Below, piece after piece: positions 44,944 to 51,949 of a stretch of 64,000 bases of DNA. Under the pieces are notes generated by a model, which did not search any database, was not told the DNA's origin, and saw only the letters and a program-made list of their open reading frames with translations. Location: contig NZ_CP146232.1 of assembly GCF_037040815.1 (NCBI RefSeq), forward strand, positions 1 to 64,000. Direction: 5' to 3'. This DNA is from Pararoseomonas sp. SCSIO 73927 (GTDB lineage Bacteria; Pseudomonadota; Alphaproteobacteria; Acetobacterales; Acetobacteraceae). The position numbers and the translations under genes are program-made. Within the stretch, counting starts at the first letter, position 1. Every line of letters starts with the position of its first letter.

Positions 44944-45324
44944 ATGGCGACCACCGTCCTGATCGTCGACGACAGCAAGCTGGCCCGGATCGTGGCCGGC
45001 AAGGCGATCGCCGCGCTGCAGCCGGACTGGGTCCGCGCCGAGGCCGGCAACGCGGAGGAGGCGATGGCCCGCCTGGCCGAGGGCGGCATCGACCTCGCCC
45101 TGCTGGACTACAACATGCCCGGCAAGGACGGGCTGACGCTGGCCGCCGAGATCTGCGCGCTGCACCCCGCCATGCCCGTCGCCGTCATCACCGCCAACGT
45201 GCAGGACGAGGTGGTGGCGCGCGCCCGCGCCGTGGGCGCCACCTTCGTGCCGAAGCCGGTGACGGAGGAGGCCCTGCGCGGCTTCGTCTCCGGCGCCGCG
45301 CTGCGCCTCCGCGCCGGCCGGTAG
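44944..45324 (+). CDS. CheY-type single-domain response regulator
   Basis: A 126-residue stand-alone receiver. Asp9/Asp10 (IVDDSKLAR), phosphoacceptor Asp55 (LALLDYNMPGKDG), Thr (VITANVQDE) and Lys in FVPKPVT are all present. With no output domain it should act by protein-protein contact after phosphorylation by CheA. The neighbouring CheC-like gene could dephosphorylate it. Alternatively it could be a phosphate sink or act on a non-flagellar target. Confidence 0.93.
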   Translation: MATTVLIVDDSKLARIVAGKAIAALQPDWVRAEAGNAEEAMARLAEGGIDLALLDYNMPGKDGLTLAAEICALHPAMPVAVITANVQDEVVARARAVGATFVPKPVTEEALRGFVSGAALRLRAGR

Positions 45325-45328
45325 CGCC

Positions 45329-45982
45329 GTGGCCGTCCCTCCCGAGGCCTCGCTCAGCGATCTGGAGCGCGACGCGCTGACGGAGCTGGTGAACATCGGC
45401 GTCAGCCGCGCCGCCGCCAGCCTGCGCCAGATGGTGGGCGGCGAGGTGCTGCTTTCCGTCCCCTCCGTCGAGATCATCGCGGAGCGCCTGGCCGCCACCC
45501 TGATCGAGGAGCGGGAGGGCAGCGACCTCGTCGCCGTGCGGCAGGACTTCACCGGCGCCTTCAACGGCCGCGCCATGCTGATCTTCCCGCAGTCCAGCGG
45601 GGCGGAGCTGCTGCGCGCCGTGGTGGGCGAGGAGGTCCCGCCCGAGGAGGCGGCGGAGATGGAGCGCGAGGCGCTCGCCGAGACCGGCAACATCATCCTG
45701 AACAACTGCCTCGCCACCATGGCGAACATGCTGCGCCGCTCCTTCGACATGTCGCTGCCGCAGGTGGTGCGCGGAGACGGCCGGATGCTGCTGGAGGGCA
45801 CGGAGCCGGGCGGCGAGGGGCTGGTGCTCTTCCTCTACATCAACTTCGCCGTGCGGGACCGCAGCCTGCGCGGCTACATCGCGATGGTGATGGACCTGCC
45901 CTCGCTCGGCGCGCTGAAGCGGCTGGTGGCCGATTTCATCGAGCGGGTGATGGACGACGATGCCGATCTCGCACCGCACTGA
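45329..45982 (+). CDS. CheC-like chemotaxis phosphatase
   Basis: Two copies of the CheC catalytic motif (Glu-x-x-Asn) can be seen: ELVNIGVSRAA (Glu19/Asn22) and ETGNIILNNCLA near residue ~115. The overall opening LSDLERDALTELVNIGVSRAAASL is that of CheC/CheX/FliY proteins, which dephosphorylate CheY-P. It starts with GTG 4 bases after the cheY stop. No CheD partner is present, unlike in Bacillus. CheC is uncommon in alphaproteobacteria. Confidence 0.88.
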   Translation: MAVPPEASLSDLERDALTELVNIGVSRAAASLRQMVGGEVLLSVPSVEIIAERLAATLIEEREGSDLVAVRQDFTGAFNGRAMLIFPQSSGAELLRAVVGEEVPPEEAAEMEREALAETGNIILNNCLATMANMLRRSFDMSLPQVVRGDGRMLLEGTEPGGEGLVLFLYINFAVRDRSLRGYIAMVMDLPSLGALKRLVADFIERVMDDDADLAPH

Positions 45983-46022: not shown

Positions 46023-48035
46023 TCACCCTCGCGGTGCGCCGGCCTTGATCAGCCCCTGCTCGTAGGCCTCCCGGTCCTCCGGGCGGCGGAAGGGGTAGGT
46101 CTCCACGAAGTTCCGCACGTTGAACTCGGGCTCGATCCGCCGCAGCGCCGCCAGCAGCGGCTTCGCCTCCTTCCGCATGCCGAGATGGCCGAGCGCCGAG
46201 AGCACCGGCTTGTAGCCGTTGACGAAGCCCGGCGCCGCCCGCACCGCGCGCCGCCCGAAGGCCAGCGCCTTCTCGAAATCGCCGTTCAGCGTGTAGGCCG
46301 TGGTGAAGACGTGGCCGAGGATGCGGTCGTGCGGGTGGGAGGGCGCGAGCGCCCGGTAGCGCTCCATCCGCCGCAGCGCCTCCTCCGGGTCGCCCGAATA
46401 GGCCTGGGTGGCGGCAGAGAGCGCCCAGGAGGAGGCCTGGTGCGGGTTCAGCTCCAGGGAGCGGTCCAGGTAGTAGGCCGCGCTGTCGAAGTCCTTGTGC
46501 AGGAAGGAGGCGACGTGGCCGTAGATGGCGGCGGCCTCCGCGCTCTCGGGGTCCAGGCTCATCGCCAGCACGGCCAGGCGCTCCGCCTCCGCCAGCGCGG
46601 CCTCCGGGTCCGGCGCCCAGTTCTGGCCGATCTGGAACACGTGCCACTGCGCGGCCCAGGCGGCGGCCATGGCGTTCTCCGGCTCCCGCGCCACCGCCTC
46701 GGCCAGCATGTCGCCGGCGCGGCGGAAGCGCCCCTCCTCCATGCTGAACAGCAGCGGCATGGCGCGGATCACGATGTCGCTCGCCTCGCCGGGGCGGCGG
46801 GCCACGGGGCGCATCCCCTCCGTGTGCAGGATCACCGGCTCCAGCCGCGCCACCAGTCGCCCCAGCGCCTCGCTCTCGACCCCGCCCGCGCGGGGGTCGA
46901 TCGGCGTGCGCGCGCTCCAGACCGGGCGGGCCAGGCAGGCGAGGTCGATGAGGGAGATCTGCAGGCGCATCCCCTCCCCCTCCTCCCGCACGGCGACGCG
47001 GGCGACGTAGTCCAGGCCGTAAGCCGCCAGCCCGCCGGGATCCCGCGGATCGGTTCCCTCCAGCGCCGGCGGGTCGACCACGTCGAAGTGGCGGTAGCGC
47101 ACCAGCTCCAGCGCCGCGTCCCCGGCATAGGCCTGGGCGAGGGGGAGAAGCGCCTCCGCGCCCGGCTGGTGCACGGCCATCACCCCCACCCGCAGCCGGC
47201 GCCCCTCCCGCAGCGCCGGCGGGGGTGGCGGGGGCGGCAGCAGGGCGGGGGCGGCCGGGGCGCGCAGCCGGCGGGCCAGGGCCTCCGTCTCGGCCGCGGG
47301 CTCCACCTCCAGCGTGCGGCGCAGCGCGGCCCGGCAGCGCCCGTACTCGGCCAGGGCCCCGGCGCGGTTCCCCGCCTCCGCCATGAGCCGCATCACGGCC
47401 CGCCAGCCCGCCTCGTTCGTGGGATCCAGGGCCACCAGGGCCCGCGCCGCCTCGATCGCCTCCTCGCGCCGGGCCGGATCGGCCTCCAGCGCGGCCAGCG
47501 CCGCCTCCTGGCGCCCCTGCAGCGCGGAGCGCAGCGCCTCCCGCTCGAGGCCGAGCCAGTCGTCGAACCCGTCGCCGATCCCCTCCAGCCCATCCATCAG
47601 CGGCGGCGGCGCGCCCGCCGCGGCAAAGGAGGAGAGGGCGAAGGGGGAGAGGGCGTCCACGTCGCCGAGGGCGAGGTCGGCCCGCAGGCTCTCCCCGTCG
47701 CGCCGGACCAGCGGCACCTCGCCGAAGGCCCTCGAGAGCTCCAGCACGGCCTGGCGGAGGCTGGCCCGCGCCTCCGCCTCCCCGGAACGCTCCCAGAGCA
47801 GCGCGGCCAGCCGCGCGCGGCTCACCGGGCGGCCGCGGGAGAGCAGCAGGATCCCCAGCAGGGCGCGCACCTTGCGCGTGGGCAGGACGATCTCCCGCCC
47901 CTCCGCCCCCCAGGCCCGCACAGGGCCGAGAAGGGCGACCCGGATGCGGGGCGGGGACGATCGCTCGTCCGCCCCGGAGGGGGAATGGGCCGTCACGGCC
48001 GGGGCAGGCCGCCCAGGGAGGTGCCGGAAGGGCAC
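46023..48035 (-). CDS. SARP/BTAD-type transcriptional regulator with TPR-like repeats (670 aa)
   Basis: The N-terminal winged-helix (~30-100; LPTRKVRALLGILLLSRGRPVSRARLAALLW) is followed by a bacterial transcriptional activation (BTAD) helical domain (~105-260; EAIEAARALVALDPTNEAGWRAVMRLMAEAG, then YGRCRAALRRTLEVEPAAETEAL). The rest (~270-670) holds TPR-like helical repeats (YLDRSLELNPHQASSWAL, YRALAPSHPHDRIL). Regulators of this type often control secondary-metabolite or signalling genes. It starts with GTG at 48035 and lies 82 bases downstream of a 290-codon ORF on the same strand. It is convergent with the cheC gene. Confidence 0.88.
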   Translation of the reverse strand: MPFRHLPGRPAPAVTAHSPSGADERSSPPRIRVALLGPVRAWGAEGREIVLPTRKVRALLGILLLSRGRPVSRARLAALLWERSGEAEARASLRQAVLELSRAFGEVPLVRRDGESLRADLALGDVDALSPFALSSFAAAGAPPPLMDGLEGIGDGFDDWLGLEREALRSALQGRQEAALAALEADPARREEAIEAARALVALDPTNEAGWRAVMRLMAEAGNRAGALAEYGRCRAALRRTLEVEPAAETEALARRLRAPAAPALLPPPPPPPALREGRRLRVGVMAVHQPGAEALLPLAQAYAGDAALELVRYRHFDVVDPPALEGTDPRDPGGLAAYGLDYVARVAVREEGEGMRLQISLIDLACLARPVWSARTPIDPRAGGVESEALGRLVARLEPVILHTEGMRPVARRPGEASDIVIRAMPLLFSMEEGRFRRAGDMLAEAVAREPENAMAAAWAAQWHVFQIGQNWAPDPEAALAEAERLAVLAMSLDPESAEAAAIYGHVASFLHKDFDSAAYYLDRSLELNPHQASSWALSAATQAYSGDPEEALRRMERYRALAPSHPHDRILGHVFTTAYTLNGDFEKALAFGRRAVRAAPGFVNGYKPVLSALGHLGMRKEAKPLLAALRRIEPEFNVRNFVETYPFRRPEDREAYEQGLIKAGAPRG

Positions 48036-48117
48036 CCCGGGGGGGCGCTGGGGAGCGGAACCATGGCGCGCCCATTATGGCCGGCCGCGCGCGCCGGAGA
48101 AAGCGCGCGCCGTCCGT

Positions 48118-48990
48118 TCATGGCTGGACCGGTATGCCGGCCCGCCGCAGCAACGCCTCCGCGACGAGGCGCCCGGGCAGGAATGGCACGGCGCCCAGCC
48201 CCGCCATGGCCCAGTGCCCGGTCGGGCCTGCACCGAGTCCCTGGTCCTGGCTTTCCGCCCCGTTCGGCCCGCCGCCGGAGCCGCCGAGCAGGGCGTTGAA
48301 CAGGCCCAGCGCCGTGAAGCGGTCCCCGTCCGGGAGGGTCAGGTCGCAGAGCGACCAGTCCGCATCGTCTGGCACCGCAGCCTCCAGCCGGCGCGGCGGG
48401 CCGGCCAGCCCCTCCCGTCGGGCAGGGCGCAGCACCTCCGCGGTCACGTCGCGGCCGCCGAGGAACAGCAGGCCGCGCTCCGGCACCCCGGCGGACAGGC
48501 GCAGGCGGCCGCCCGGATCGGGCAGCGGGGCAGGCTCGAAACCGGCCCTCGCGCCCCCGTTCAGGTGCACCGCGCCGCGGACGGTGTTCCAGGCGTTCAG
48601 CGGGTTATAGCTCCCGGCGCGGAAGACGAGCTCGTAGCCCTCCGGCCCGCGGGAGTAGACGTCGGACCGCCAGACCAGATCCTCCTCGCGGATCTCCGGC
48701 CGGCCGAGGATGCCGCGGTACAGCAACGCGACCTGCCCCGGCGCCTCCTCCGCCATGGCGGTCCAGTCCTCCAGCGCCTCGAAGGTGTAGGACACGGCGC
48801 GGAGGAGCCCGGCGATCCGGCGGCTGTGCCACTCGCAGCCCAGCATCTGCTGGCGGCGGTGGACGGGCACCCGGATATAGGCCGCGCCGCGCCTCTCGAA
48901 GAGGCAGCCCAGCGCCAGCGTCTCGCAGGTCAGGTGAAGAAGCCCCGGCCCGGCCTTGCCCGGCACGGCCGGCTTGCGTCCAGGCGGCAC
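48118..48990 (-). CDS. Hypothetical protein (290 aa) in the repeat-peptide cassette
   Basis: Not recognised. It is soluble, with no signal peptide, metal motif or repeat. Notable segments are GLLHLTCETLALGCLFERRG (two Cys), VPVHRRQQMLGCEWHSRR, YELVFRAGSYNPLNAWNTVRG and RLRLSAGVPERGLLFLGGRD. The pattern is beta-rich in the middle. GTG 48990 has GGGA six bases upstream. A TTG at 49002 is an alternative. It follows the 54-residue peptide gene and precedes the BTAD regulator, all on the minus strand. Confidence 0.65.
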   Translation of the reverse strand: MPPGRKPAVPGKAGPGLLHLTCETLALGCLFERRGAAYIRVPVHRRQQMLGCEWHSRRIAGLLRAVSYTFEALEDWTAMAEEAPGQVALLYRGILGRPEIREEDLVWRSDVYSRGPEGYELVFRAGSYNPLNAWNTVRGAVHLNGGARAGFEPAPLPDPGGRLRLSAGVPERGLLFLGGRDVTAEVLRPARREGLAGPPRRLEAAVPDDADWSLCDLTLPDGDRFTALGLFNALLGGSGGGPNGAESQDQGLGAGPTGHWAMAGLGAVPFLPGRLVAEALLRRAGIPVQP

Positions 48991-49018
48991 GGTCTGTCCC
49001 AAGTCGAAATGTCCCCCG

Positions 49019-49054
49019 CTGTCTTGTCGGCTGTCCTGCCAGCTGTCCTGTCAG
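49019..49054. repeat. Three tandem copies of a 12-base unit
   Basis: CTGTCTTGTCGG, CTGTCCTGCCAG and CTGTCCTGTCAG follow one another without a gap. The units differ by one or two bases. They lie in the intergenic gap between the 54-residue peptide gene and the 290-residue ORF, so they would sit in the untranslated leader. Confidence 0.6.
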
Positions 49055-49171
49055 CCCCGGGCGAGCCAAGCCGCGCGGGCGCCGCCACACGCCCGAATCA
49101 GCGCCCGCATCGGAGCCCACATGGGGCCGGATCGGAGCCTGATCGGCTGCCTAGGCCGAAGGCGTGTCGCG

Positions 49172-49336
49172 TCAGTGCCCTTCGGGGCCGCCTTCAGGTG
49201 GCCGCGCCAGCGCGTCCTGCAGCGCTTCCAGGACCCCGCCGGCAACGTCGAGCCCGGTGGTGCGGGCGGTGCGGACGAGCCGCTGGATCACCTGCTGGAG
49301 CTGCTCCTGCTCGGTGGGAAGGTCGAGGTCGATCAT
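49172..49336 (-). CDS. Small peptide (54 aa) in the repeat-peptide cassette
   Basis: Sequence features: an acidic start (MIDLDLPTEQEQLQQVIQRL), an amphipathic helix, then TTGLDVAGGVLEALQDAL and a Pro/Gly/His-rich end (PPEGGPEGH). Gly33-Gly34 within a helix-breaking context recalls double-glycine leader sites, but it could be coincidence. AGGAGAGG lies 4-5 bases before the ATG, an excellent RBS. The gene follows the EamA exporter gene after 30 bases on the same strand. Confidence 0.65.
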   Translation of the reverse strand: MIDLDLPTEQEQLQQVIQRLVRTARTTGLDVAGGVLEALQDALARPPEGGPEGH

Positions 49337-49366
49337 GTGCCTCTCCTCTGCCAAGGGTCGAAGGGG

Positions 49367-50395
49367 CTACCCCGCCGCCATGCCGCGACGTCGGGGGAGC
49401 GGTGGCCGCATCCGGCGCAGCACCTGGGCGAGGCGCGGAACCGGGCGAGACAGCGGCCGCTGGCCGGGGCCATGGCCGGAAGGCGGGGAGGAGGACCGGG
49501 TGGAGGAGACCGCCGAGAGGGCGGCGCCCGCCACCATGGCCGCGATCGCCGTCCCGGCCTCCGGCGACGGCACCTCTCCCAGCAGCGGCACGGCGATCGC
49601 CGCCGCCATGGCCGGGACGAGGGAGAGGCAGACCGTCGCCGGGGTGGGGCCGAGCAGCGCGATGGCGCGGTTCATCGCCACCATCGTCAGCACGCCCACC
49701 AGCAGCCCCTGGAACCCTGCCTGCGCCAGGAGCGCCCGCGGCGCCACCTCGGCCAGGTGCGGCAGCCCGCCGGTCAGGGCCAGCGCCACCAGCCCGCCGA
49801 GGCCGGAGAGGACGGCGACGAAGGCCGCCCCTTCCAGCGCCGTGAAGCCCGAGTCCCGCAGCCGGACGAAGTAGATCCCGCCCATGAAAGCCGCGAGGAC
49901 GAACATCGCATAGCCCAGCAGGGCGGAGCCGCCCTCCCCCGCATCCGCCGCAGCCAGCAGCGCCGCCCCGGCCGCGATCATCGCGGCCCCGAGCGCGGCG
50001 TTGCGCCCCGGCCGGCGCCCGGCGAGGAGGCCGAGCAGGAGGGTGACCGCCGGCATCAGCCCGAGCGTCAGCGCCGCCCCGTGGGCGGCCGGCGCTTGGG
50101 CGAGGCCGGCGGCGATGAGGGCGGCGAGCGGCGTGCCCTGGCAGAAGGCGAGGAGCGCGGCCTCAGCCCAGCCCTGCCGGTCCAGACGGCGCGCGCGGGG
50201 GATGAAGACGGGCAGCAGGACCGCGCCGGCCACGAGGTAGCGCAGCGTCGCCAGCTCCAGCGGCGTCATCGCCTGCTGCGTGACGCCCAGCCGGGTGATG
50301 GCGGGATAGGCGGCGGCCACCAGCACGGCCACCAGGGCCCAGGCCAGGCCCTGAAGCCTGCTGGGGGGCAGCCGGTCCGGGGCCGGGGCGGTCAT
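49367..50395 (-). CDS. EamA/DMT-family transporter
   Basis: Ten hydrophobic helices in two EamA-like halves (from LQGLAWALVAVLVAAAYPAI to AGTAIAAMVAGAALSAVSS). The drug/metabolite transporter fold is clear from TPLELATLRYLVAGAVLLPV and TPATVCLSLVPAMAAAIAVPLLGE. Such proteins usually export small metabolites or amino acids. Some act with biosynthetic genes. The extra basic C-terminal tail of ~40 residues (RPLSRPVPRLAQVLRRMRPPLPRRR) is unusual. Its ATG overlaps the DUF6065 stop by 4 bases, so the two are translationally coupled. Confidence 0.93.
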   Translation of the reverse strand: MTAPAPDRLPPSRLQGLAWALVAVLVAAAYPAITRLGVTQQAMTPLELATLRYLVAGAVLLPVFIPRARRLDRQGWAEAALLAFCQGTPLAALIAAGLAQAPAAHGAALTLGLMPAVTLLLGLLAGRRPGRNAALGAAMIAAGAALLAAADAGEGGSALLGYAMFVLAAFMGGIYFVRLRDSGFTALEGAAFVAVLSGLGGLVALALTGGLPHLAEVAPRALLAQAGFQGLLVGVLTMVAMNRAIALLGPTPATVCLSLVPAMAAAIAVPLLGEVPSPEAGTAIAAMVAGAALSAVSSTRSSSPPSGHGPGQRPLSRPVPRLAQVLRRMRPPLPRRRGMAAG

Positions 50396-51294
50396 GCGCC
50401 GGATTCCTCGCGCTTCTTTCCCTTGCGGGACTCGGCGGCATAGGCCCCGCGGCGGCGGTTGGGGTCCTTGTTCGGCTTCACCACGGTCTGGCGGAAGGCG
50501 TCCCAGTCCGCCTCGCTGAAGGAGTCCAGCCCCTCGGACACCGCGTAGTTGTCCAGGGTGGGGTCCAGCACCGTGCTCCGCTGCACCGGCTGCACCTGCA
50601 TCAGCGGGTATCCGGCCTTGAAGCGAACGGGGATGTCGGTGCGGGTCAGGCGGATGTTGAGCAGCAGCGGGCCGAACCAGCGGTCCGTCTCCACGATGCC
50701 CTCGAAATGCTCGTAGCCCAGGTCGCGCGGCACGTTGGCGGGCGGGCGGATCAGCAGGTTCCAGCCGGGCGCGGTGCGCGCCACCACGCCGGACCAGATC
50801 TGCACGATCCCGGGCTCGATGAAGTTCGCGAGGAACGGGGGCGAGAAGCCCTTCGCGTCCTCCGGCGCCGCCTCGTCGAACTCGCCCGCAAAATAGGGGA
50901 ACTGGGCGACGTCCAGCGGGTACCAGCCCTCGGCCTCGGGGTAGGTCCACTGGATCTCCGTACCGCCATCCCAGACGAGCTCGAAATCCATGGGCGGGAA
51001 GACGTGCCAGCCGAACGCGGCGGCGGAGCACAGCGCCTCGCAGTAGCGGTAGGCGCGGATGGGGATGGTGCCGTAGCCGTCCCGGCCCGCGCGCTGGGGC
51101 GGACGGCAGCCCGGGAAGAGGTTGTGGAAGCGGACGATTGGCTCCCGGGCCGGCTCCCGGGCCAGCTCATGCGGCGTGGTGGACGCGTTCCGCGGGACGG
51201 GGACGGCCTCGGTTGTCAGGTCCTGATCCATGATGCCGTACGCCATCCCCAGCAGGTCCCGGCCGCCGCGGTGCGCGGAGGCCGCCGGCTTCAT
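50392..51294 (-). CDS. DUF6065-like family protein
   Basis: A ~300-residue soluble protein with no signal peptide. The order of motifs (RYCEALCSAAAFGWHVFPPM, DFELVWDGG, GIVQIWSGVVARTAPGWNLL, IRPPANVPRDLGYEHFEGIV, ETDRWFGPLLLNIRLTRTD, VRFKAGYPLMQVQPVQR) fits the uncharacterised family I know as DUF6065. The biochemical role is unknown. It lies 46 bases after the repeat-peptide gene and is coupled to the EamA gene. The last 20 residues are basic. ATG 51294 was used. ATG 51246 or 51231 are possible. Confidence 0.75.
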   Translation of the reverse strand: MKPAASAHRGGRDLLGMAYGIMDQDLTTEAVPVPRNASTTPHELAREPAREPIVRFHNLFPGCRPPQRAGRDGYGTIPIRAYRYCEALCSAAAFGWHVFPPMDFELVWDGGTEIQWTYPEAEGWYPLDVAQFPYFAGEFDEAAPEDAKGFSPPFLANFIEPGIVQIWSGVVARTAPGWNLLIRPPANVPRDLGYEHFEGIVETDRWFGPLLLNIRLTRTDIPVRFKAGYPLMQVQPVQRSTVLDPTLDNYAVSEGLDSFSEADWDAFRQTVVKPNKDPNRRRGAYAAESRKGKKREESGA

Positions 51295-51340
51295 CCAACC
51301 CGCCCTTGCGGCGGCTCCGGACGGAGCCCGGTAGGCGCCG

Positions 51341-51781
51341 TCAGATCGCGCGCTGCAGGCCGCCGGTGGAGACGCGGCCGTTGTCGGCCACGGCCTTCGG
51401 GGCGGTGCGGATGATCGCGCGCTGCAGGCCGCCGGTGGAGACGCGGCCGTTGTCGGTCACGGCCTTCGGGGCGGTGCGGACGATGGCGCGCTGCAGGCCG
51501 CCGGTGGAGACGCGGCCGTTGTCGGCCACGGCCTTCGGGGCGGTGCGGACGATGGCGCGCTGCAGGCCGCCGGTCGAGACGCGGCCGTTGTCGGTCACGG
51601 CCTTCGGGGCGGTGCGGATGATCGCGCGCTGCAGGCCACCGGTGGAGACGCGGCCGTTGTCGGCCACGGCCTTCGGGGCGGTGCGGATGATCGCGCGCTG
51701 CAGGCCACCGGTGGAGACGCGGCCGTTGTCGGCCACGGCCTTCGGGGCGGTGCGGAGGATGGCGGTGCTCTTCTCGGTCAT
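51341..51781 (-). CDS. Repeat-peptide precursor-like protein (146 aa, six 23-residue repeats)
   Basis: After a leader of only ~9 residues (MTEKSTAIL) the protein consists of six almost identical 23-residue repeats. Each contains RTAPKAV, then Ala or Thr, then DNGRVSTGGLQRAI. Copies 3 and 5 have Thr, the others Ala. The last repeat ends at the stop after QRAI. AGGA lies 7 bases before ATG 51781. There is no signal peptide or membrane segment. The protein is strongly basic and has no Cys. It leads a same-strand gene series with a DUF6065 protein and an exporter. It could be a precursor of repeated peptides or a repeat scaffold. This is a recognised gene pattern but not a recognised family. Confidence 0.7.
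   Translation of the reverse strand: MTEKSTAILRTAPKAVADNGRVSTGGLQRAIIRTAPKAVADNGRVSTGGLQRAIIRTAPKAVTDNGRVSTGGLQRAIVRTAPKAVADNGRVSTGGLQRAIVRTAPKAVTDNGRVSTGGLQRAIIRTAPKAVADNGRVSTGGLQRAI
51344..51757. repeat. Six tandem copies of a 69-base unit
   Basis: The copies begin at 51344, 51413, 51482, 51551, 51620 and 51689. There are only about five variable sites per unit. In the minus-strand frame three are silent (Ala GCG/GCC, Ser TCC/TCG, Gly GGC/GGT) and two give conservative changes (Ala/Thr, Ile/Val). Because 69 is a multiple of 3, all frames through the array stay open. It is coding DNA, not a CRISPR array: there are no spacers. Confidence 0.97.
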
Positions 51782-51949
51782 GGATGGGTCCTGTGCTGAG
51801 ATCGGCCTGCCGGGCTGGCGCACCACCCCGGGGTGAAGGGACACGGCTTTTCAGCCGGTCGGCCAAAGGCAGCACGGAGGCCGGATATTTCCGTCAGGCC
51901 ATCGTCAAATCACCGTCAATTGTGGATCGGTGCCTCATTTTCCCGTCGT

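Follow-up and report, generated by a model that had tools for sequence, protein, structure and literature searches.

The gene cassette in Pararoseomonas sp. SCSIO 73927

We analysed a 64,000-nucleotide stretch of the genome of Pararoseomonas sp. SCSIO 73927 (contig NZ_CP146232.1, positions 1 to 64,000; the whole stretch is called the window below), and in it a cassette of six genes, all on the minus strand, which includes a gene for a peptide built of repeated units and, next to it, a gene for a protein of the DUF6065 family (PF19541). A sequence-only reading of this cassette had suggested a system for production and export of a repeat peptide, similar in layout to those of ribosomally synthesized and post-translationally modified peptides (RiPPs). 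The genes, or open reading frames (ORFs), are the following:

51341..51781, minus strand: repeat peptide ORF, 146 aa, six 23-aa units with the core NGRVSTGGLQRAI
50392..51294, minus strand: DUF6065 protein (PF19541), profile match with E 1.6e-19
49367..50395, minus strand: EamA-type transporter (E 1e-20), a lineage-specific member
49172..49336, minus strand: 54-aa ORF with a AGGAGAGG run before the ATG
48118..49002, minus strand: 294-codon ORF with a TTG start, without a Pfam or NCBIfam match
46023..47996, minus strand: BTAD regulator, 657 aa, with a TPR-like C-terminal part (BTAD E 4.9e-12)

The 146-residue protein of six 23-residue units, as it had been described from the sequence, agrees both with the ORF list and with the output of Tandem Repeats Finder (TRF), which reports a 69-nt unit in 6.1 copies with 96% matches and a score of 765, the top one among the 30 rows for the window. 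Also as described, the DUF6065 gene starts 46 bases after the stop of the repeat ORF and shares 4 bases with the EamA ORF, the 54-aa ORF has a good ribosome-binding site (the AGGAGAGG run), and the last gene encodes a BTAD-type regulator with TPR-like repeats, its BTAD domain scoring 46.9 bits (cut-off 22.1), while its TPR matches are weak and its match to the DNA-binding domain Trans_reg_C (19.3 bits) is below the cut-off of 26.2. The ORF that had been called unrecognised and 290 residues long is indeed devoid of Pfam matches; counted from the TTG, it has 294 codons. The noted lack of class-defining RiPP enzymes was upheld by the Pfam and NCBIfam scans of the window cassette, where no YcaO, LanM, radical SAM, ATP-grasp, MNIO or similar protein was found; neither a protease, nor a known tailoring enzyme, nor a recognisable leader was found there, and the PADLOC models of anti-phage defence gave 0 families among five window proteins.

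Two ORFs on the plus strand converge on the BTAD gene, a CheX/CheC-like gene (45329-45982) and a response-regulator-like one named by eye (44944-45324); both have matches beside the BTAD gene in two related loci (L032 and L034).

Pairing of the repeat peptide with DUF6065

The repeat peptide and DUF6065 constitute a conserved pair. A search of genome contigs with the window DUF6065 protein provided a first set of 80 loci (designated L with a number); in line with a Roseomonas-like genome, the closest of them belong to Roseomonas populi (DUF6065 89%), R. rosea, R. harenae and Pararoseomonas indoligenes. In many of these loci the tandem repeats found by TRF, with units mostly of 45-69 nt, stop just 5' of the DUF6065 match. 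A small core-bearing ORF was seen by eye just upstream of DUF6065 in 73 of 78 first-set loci and in 40 of 42 loci of a second set; L064 and L093 from the first set and L218 from the second, where the contig begins at the gene, were left unscored. By-eye counts of this kind depend on judgement, unlike those by motif. The strict motif D.[GSAT][KR][VI][RKVS][LFMTV][GA][GAS], which was devised after viewing the first-set loci and is thus not blind there, was found upstream in 55/78 of them versus 0/78, 0/74, 0/74, and 0/60 control windows, and a looser motif in 63/78 versus 4/78, 7/74, 1/74, and 2/60 (windows of 550 nt, nine upstream windows and their opposite-strand controls being shorter). For the second set the motif was fixed beforehand and the windows were of 700 nt. 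This set was made of 60 loci picked from DUF6065 matches in genomes of the family Acetobacteraceae; after the removal of 17 duplicates by an exact 200-base test, 43 new loci (42 scorable) were retained, which are still relatives and in part represent second DUF6065 genes of sampled genomes. Here the strict motif occurs upstream in 22/42 loci versus 0/43, 0/43, and 0/37 non-empty controls, and 18 of the 20 loci missed by it carry a looser core visible by eye. Strict matches in all non-empty control windows taken together amount to 0/409. A six-frame scan of the 80 first-set loci (813 kb) placed 172 of 175 strict matches on the strand of the DUF6065 gene, no more than 1.1 kb upstream; the three stray ones are located in L040 (one) and in L060 (two, 3.3 kb downstream). 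The latter two, at about 9279-9340 of L060 in an Elioraea metagenome-assembled genome (MAG), 3.3 kb from the DUF6065 start, perhaps belong to a second peptide gene.

The sequence-only reading had staked its cassette on the presence of repeat-rich neighbours beside DUF6065 homologues; this was checked in the relatives, and the pair survived. Its presence in almost every relative examined shows that more than chance is involved, and the two proteins very probably work together.

The same association is observed at the level of genomes. Among 299 genomes of the family, 77 possess both genes, five the peptide only, 20 DUF6065 only and 197 neither (Fisher p 7e-46, a value which overstates independence, as the genomes are related). 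DUF6065 was regarded as present at a best E <= 1e-30, i.e., in 97/299 genomes (106 at E <= 1e-3); the profile of the precursors, which misses short forms, recognised 82/299. In four of the five precursor-only genomes the array runs off the contig end, and a strict core is lacking in the fifth (G053); some of the DUF6065-only genomes do have a strict core upstream of the gene (G016/L193, G162/L188, G205/L187, and G271/L195). Draft contigs that end inside a core array are found at L040, L042, L043, L045, L047, L072, L080, L083, L251, L253, L254, and L255, so that assemblies can readily miss such peptides.

At E <= 1e-30 the DUF6065 clade was detected in only one of 398 genomes of the phylum sample, the window's own; its scattered members outside the family come from Bradyrhizobium, Sulfitobacter and betaproteobacterial MAGs, and a search of phages gave no match. 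On plasmid pWSM4643_1 of the pea-associated Rhizobium sp. WSM4643 (L256, 5688-7858) the peptide and DUF6065 genes are followed by a major facilitator superfamily (MFS) transporter in the form of two ORFs. The conjugative plasmid pMl1 of Sinorhizobium medicae (L257) encodes a distant DUF6065 protein (27%) near an S8 peptidase gene, and its DUF6065 gene overlaps that of a 169-aa hypothetical protein.

The peptide core and its selection

Across the relatives the core follows approximately the pattern D-x-G-[KR]-[VI]-R-[LF]-G-[GA]. A peptide contains from one to at least 19 copies of it, and the unit period ranges from 9 to 25 aa, so that the length of 23 residues is not general; even close relatives differ in copy number (two in L032, three in L033, two in L034, six in the window), and one-core peptides exist (e.g., L046, L058, and L110). 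The core reads GRVSTGGLQRAI in Roseomonas loci and DAGKVRLGGMAPSL, DAGKIKLGGGFRLP, DASKVRMGGFAPTL, VEMGGMSPLF, KVVTGGMAVPHL, and VHIANKSPAF in others, the one-core form of Bradyrhizobium being NVNIGGMAPVF. Derived from 97 distinct cores, the consensus reads D (84/96), G (72/97), K/R (81/97), V/I, R (71/97), L/F, G, G/A, with positions 0 to +4 partly set by the regular expression and with 18 loci omitted (wrong mechanical frame or no core); position +7 is R or P in 80/97.

The window repeat protein had no match at E <= 1e-3 among 8000 scored candidates of a large protein database, an alignment of 11 precursors found 86 matches among 7994 scored, all of them unnamed or hypothetical except two misnomers, and against PDB sequences the precursors gave nothing at E <= 0.01. 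The R. populi orthologue (P0199) is labelled 'FXSXX-COOH protein' in one source, yet its C-terminus is LQRAI, and the label is probably a misnomer. An FtsK gamma domain in the repeat protein was rejected: its 45.9 bits (cut-off 30.6) are a sum of six weak matches, none of which passes the cut-off alone, and the domain is absent from 10 of 11 scanned precursors, several of which match other unrelated families instead.

The core is kept by selection at the peptide level in the relatives. In 50 arrays, differences between adjacent copies fall at codon positions 1, 2 and 3 in 142, 86, and 795 cases, respectively, and codons with a single difference comprise 719 synonymous and 115 nonsynonymous ones. 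The resulting ratio of nonsynonymous to synonymous differences (pN/pS) is 0.064, or 0.079 without the six largest arrays; the choice of arrays by amino-acid self-similarity in the coding frame lowers pN somewhat. The other five frames gave 3.8, 6.1, 4.1, 0.14 (a reverse frame), and 6.8, i.e., the assigned frame is under the strongest purifying selection of all. The numerous synonymous differences indicate that the copies are old. Within 48 arrays (L066 omitted), four core positions that the regular expression leaves free and that are variable between species are nearly constant: +5 differs in 1/232 copy pairs, +6 in 4/232, +7 in 2/232, and +9 in 3/230. For most spacer positions the share of differing pairs is 10-20%. 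The window array alone has six synonymous and seven nonsynonymous single-base codon differences between adjacent copies; since it is young, selection must be shown from the relatives. Two other frames are open over the window array, 51306-51836 on the plus strand (176 aa) and 51291-51875 on the minus strand (194 aa).

Regulator and transporters

The BTAD regulator is a recurrent third member of the pair. It was matched near DUF6065 by tblastn in 56/80 first-set loci and, where at least 5 kb is available on both sides, in 34/43 loci of the first set and 26/30 of the second; its strand is opposite to that of DUF6065 in 26 of these 34 first-set loci and in all 32 second-set matches. The own genome has two BTAD matches in 5.6 Mb, and regulators like that of the window occur in 175/299 genomes of the family, with one to five listed in each and few candidates scored per genome. 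With so few such regulators per genome, adjacency by chance would be expected, by our estimate, at about one per cent. The pair also exists without it, namely in eight of the nine well-flanked first-set loci lacking BTAD (all but L074) and in two of four in the second set (L163 and L189). Three loci with 5 kb on both sides (L074, L168, and L172) have neither a visible core nor BTAD; they are perhaps orphan paralogues.

As to the remaining genes, the cassette as a unit holds for the conserved pair and the recurrent regulator; the EamA gene and the 54-aa and 294-codon ORFs are restricted to some lineages, which does not support the cassette in the form first described. The EamA gene follows DUF6065 directly in 6/80 first-set loci (L032-L035, L062, and L067; tblastn with the window protein) and, with a 4-base overlap, in L220 of the second set (Pfam), and its place is taken by an MFS gene in L069, L086, L180, and L256; these counts are lower bounds. 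In L161 an EamA gene lies 2.7 kb upstream on the other strand. The 54-aa ORF has matches only in L032-L035, the loci of the four nearest relatives (4/80 loci, 52-68% identity over 42-44 aa), and the 294-codon ORF in 4/80 loci (55-72%) and 2/299 genomes.

The DUF6065 protein

The window DUF6065 protein matches PF19541 with 70.8 bits (cut-off 26.6). Since conservation sets in only near residue 50, translation may in fact start from an ATG further downstream. The AlphaFold2 (AF2) model (pLDDT 86) predicts a dUTPase-like, beta-clip fold with extra C-terminal helices. The HHalign comparison with dUTPase is weak (E 0.023, probability 2%), and homology was not accepted from it alone. Of the motif strings scanned, II (PRS[GSAT]) and V (GGFGS), each occurs in one of 64 DUF6065 rows, at another place, versus 16 of 17 dUTPase rows. 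In the same weak alignment, PRSG of motif II is opposite PPAN of DUF6065, and the Asp position which we take to be catalytic in dUTPase corresponds to Glu202. Motifs II and V are not kept, and DUF6065 is not regarded as a dUTPase.

The DUF6065 profile had no match among PDB sequences at E <= 1, and HHalign found nothing between DUF6065 and a dCTP-deaminase-like protein (named by eye) of the own genome. This genome carries a second DUF6065 gene (C1:3898445; L118, 5221-5967), whose product is similar to the clade profile (hhalign E 1.5e-11) and shares with it the GxVETD segment and the Asn of the RPPAN/GPTN segment; its neighbourhood is unrelated, and by the ORF list no core-peptide ORF is visible upstream. 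Putative natural fusions of the peptide to DUF6065 (L115-L117) were rejected, the upstream parts of these long open frames being other frames, and a regular-expression search for fusions over 120 listed DUF6065 homologues found none.

Discussion

Taken together, these data are, in our opinion, best read as a peptide system of two dedicated genes, which in most cases has a regulator of its own. Its upstream gene would give a short peptide in which the conserved core is present once or in up to about twenty copies, and DUF6065, dUTPase-like in predicted fold and not a dUTPase, would act on each core, most likely as an enzyme that tailors a RiPP-like precursor with multiple cores; its target could be the backbone or the species-specific tail of the core and not one fixed side chain. 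The product would then be modified, cut and exported, some lineages adding a small-molecule exporter (EamA or MFS), and the BTAD protein, usually encoded next door on the opposite strand, probably controls the pair. The RiPP layout implies a dedicated partner gene next to that of a ribosomal precursor, as is found here. We consider a RiPP-like precursor with a partner enzyme the best single reading, its chance being close to even and still slightly below that; in a broader wording, the pair perhaps makes or handles an undescribed peptide product.

Several observations speak against this tailoring role. No side chain is common to all cores (e.g., VHIANKSPAF, VSMRLGARSS, and YRFGDGGCI), which is unusual for side-chain chemistry, and core position +8 varies within arrays (36/231 copy pairs). 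Seven DUF6065 loci (L053, L056, L057, L074, L079, L168, and L172) have no core visible by eye. There is no universal exporter, EamA or MFS following DUF6065 in some lineages only. No protease, leader-recognition protein or known RiPP enzyme recurs among the downstream families listed (25 of 26 and 25 of 42), the scan having covered 43/48 plus-strand and 47/66 minus-strand mechanically picked ORFs, some of them in a wrong frame (e.g., in L067), so that its tallies are undercounts. With dUTPase motifs II and V not kept, no catalytic role can be transferred to DUF6065. Finally, an AF2 model of a peptide-DUF6065 read-through from L038 put no peptide on DUF6065 (peptide pLDDT <50), a weak result, as the model is a monomer with few paired rows.

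A strong rival, which we rank next and hold to be a serious though rather doubtful account, is that the core is a short linear docking motif (hydrophobic-x-hydrophobic-G-G/A) which binds DUF6065 and stays unmodified, the array being a multivalent partner that serves as a scaffold or a trans-acting regulator; in a bold version, the Gly-rich core would substitute in trans for the glycine-rich motif V arm that is missing from DUF6065. Conservation of the core as a pattern and not as one reactive residue, drift of the spacers while most core positions stay constant, absence of the motif V string from the aligned place in all 64 DUF6065 rows, and the lack of a recognisable leader, protease and universal exporter all agree with such docking. 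It has to cope, however, with the existence of one-core peptides, with the transporters of several lineages, which it leaves unexplained, and with the L038 model, where no docking was seen, for what a monomer with few paired rows is worth. That the DUF6065 proteins of this clade are either dUTPase-fold peptide-tailoring enzymes of a new multi-core RiPP class of Acetobacteraceae and scattered Proteobacteria, or partners of a peptide that supplies the glycine-rich pocket-closing arm in trans, is a tentative proposal with distinctly less than an even chance; to our knowledge, neither use of this fold is known elsewhere.

TPR regulators elsewhere sense peptides, and the array could also be cut into identical pheromones sensed by the BTAD/TPR regulator, with DUF6065 aiding maturation or transport. 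The presence of such a regulator beside most pairs and the identical copies held by selection fit this possibility, but the N-terminus of the window peptide, MTEKSTAILRTAPK, does not resemble a signal peptide (judged by eye) and BTAD is missing beside the pair in some of the well-flanked loci, which leaves the pheromone improbable. Still a little less probable is a repeat protein of structural or ligand-binding function, DUF6065 being its chaperone or processing factor: repeats under strong selection would fit any repeat protein, but the one-core peptides of L046, L058, and L110 cannot form a repeat fold, and copy numbers differ (2, 3, 2, and 6) between close loci. A chance arrangement or an open DNA-level minisatellite, which the additional open frames and low copy divergence would allow for the window alone, is practically excluded by the pairing, which is conserved over about 120 loci while no control window has a strict match, and by the frame-specific purifying selection.

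The pair is thus real, conserved and undescribed in the literature searched. No paper on DUF6065 or PF19541 was found, and the titles and opening abstract lines of papers on multi-core RiPPs, on dUTPase with RiPPs and on Acetobacteraceae mention no such system. A survey of Acetobacteraceae gene clusters reports RiPPs of the DUF692, lasso, YcaO, and cyanobactin types, and its passages on these clusters do not mention DUF6065 (PMC8776678). The DUF6065 family now has a definite and testable partner in a peptide core that is strongly selected. Modification of this core by DUF6065 would amount to a new peptide chemistry carried by an unexpected fold, and its binding would make the two a new multivalent system of peptide and protein.

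Comparison with known systems

Trimeric dUTPase (PF00692) shares with DUF6065 the predicted beta-clip fold; DUF6065 differs in the lack of motifs II and V and in the extra C-terminal helices, and the link in sequence is weak. The window regulator is similar to those of the SARP/AfsR type in having BTAD, a weak Trans_reg_C match and TPR, and differs from them in being proteobacterial and attached to a two-gene peptide module, its regulatory role being putative. As to multi-core RiPPs, their precursors contain several identical cores and are encoded beside a tailoring enzyme. The system described here is distinguished from them by having no recognisable leader, protease, known tailoring enzyme or universal reactive side chain, and resembles them in that its repeated cores are selected and vary in copy number, that a partner gene lies next to them, and that a BTAD-type regulator and, in some lineages, an exporter are present.

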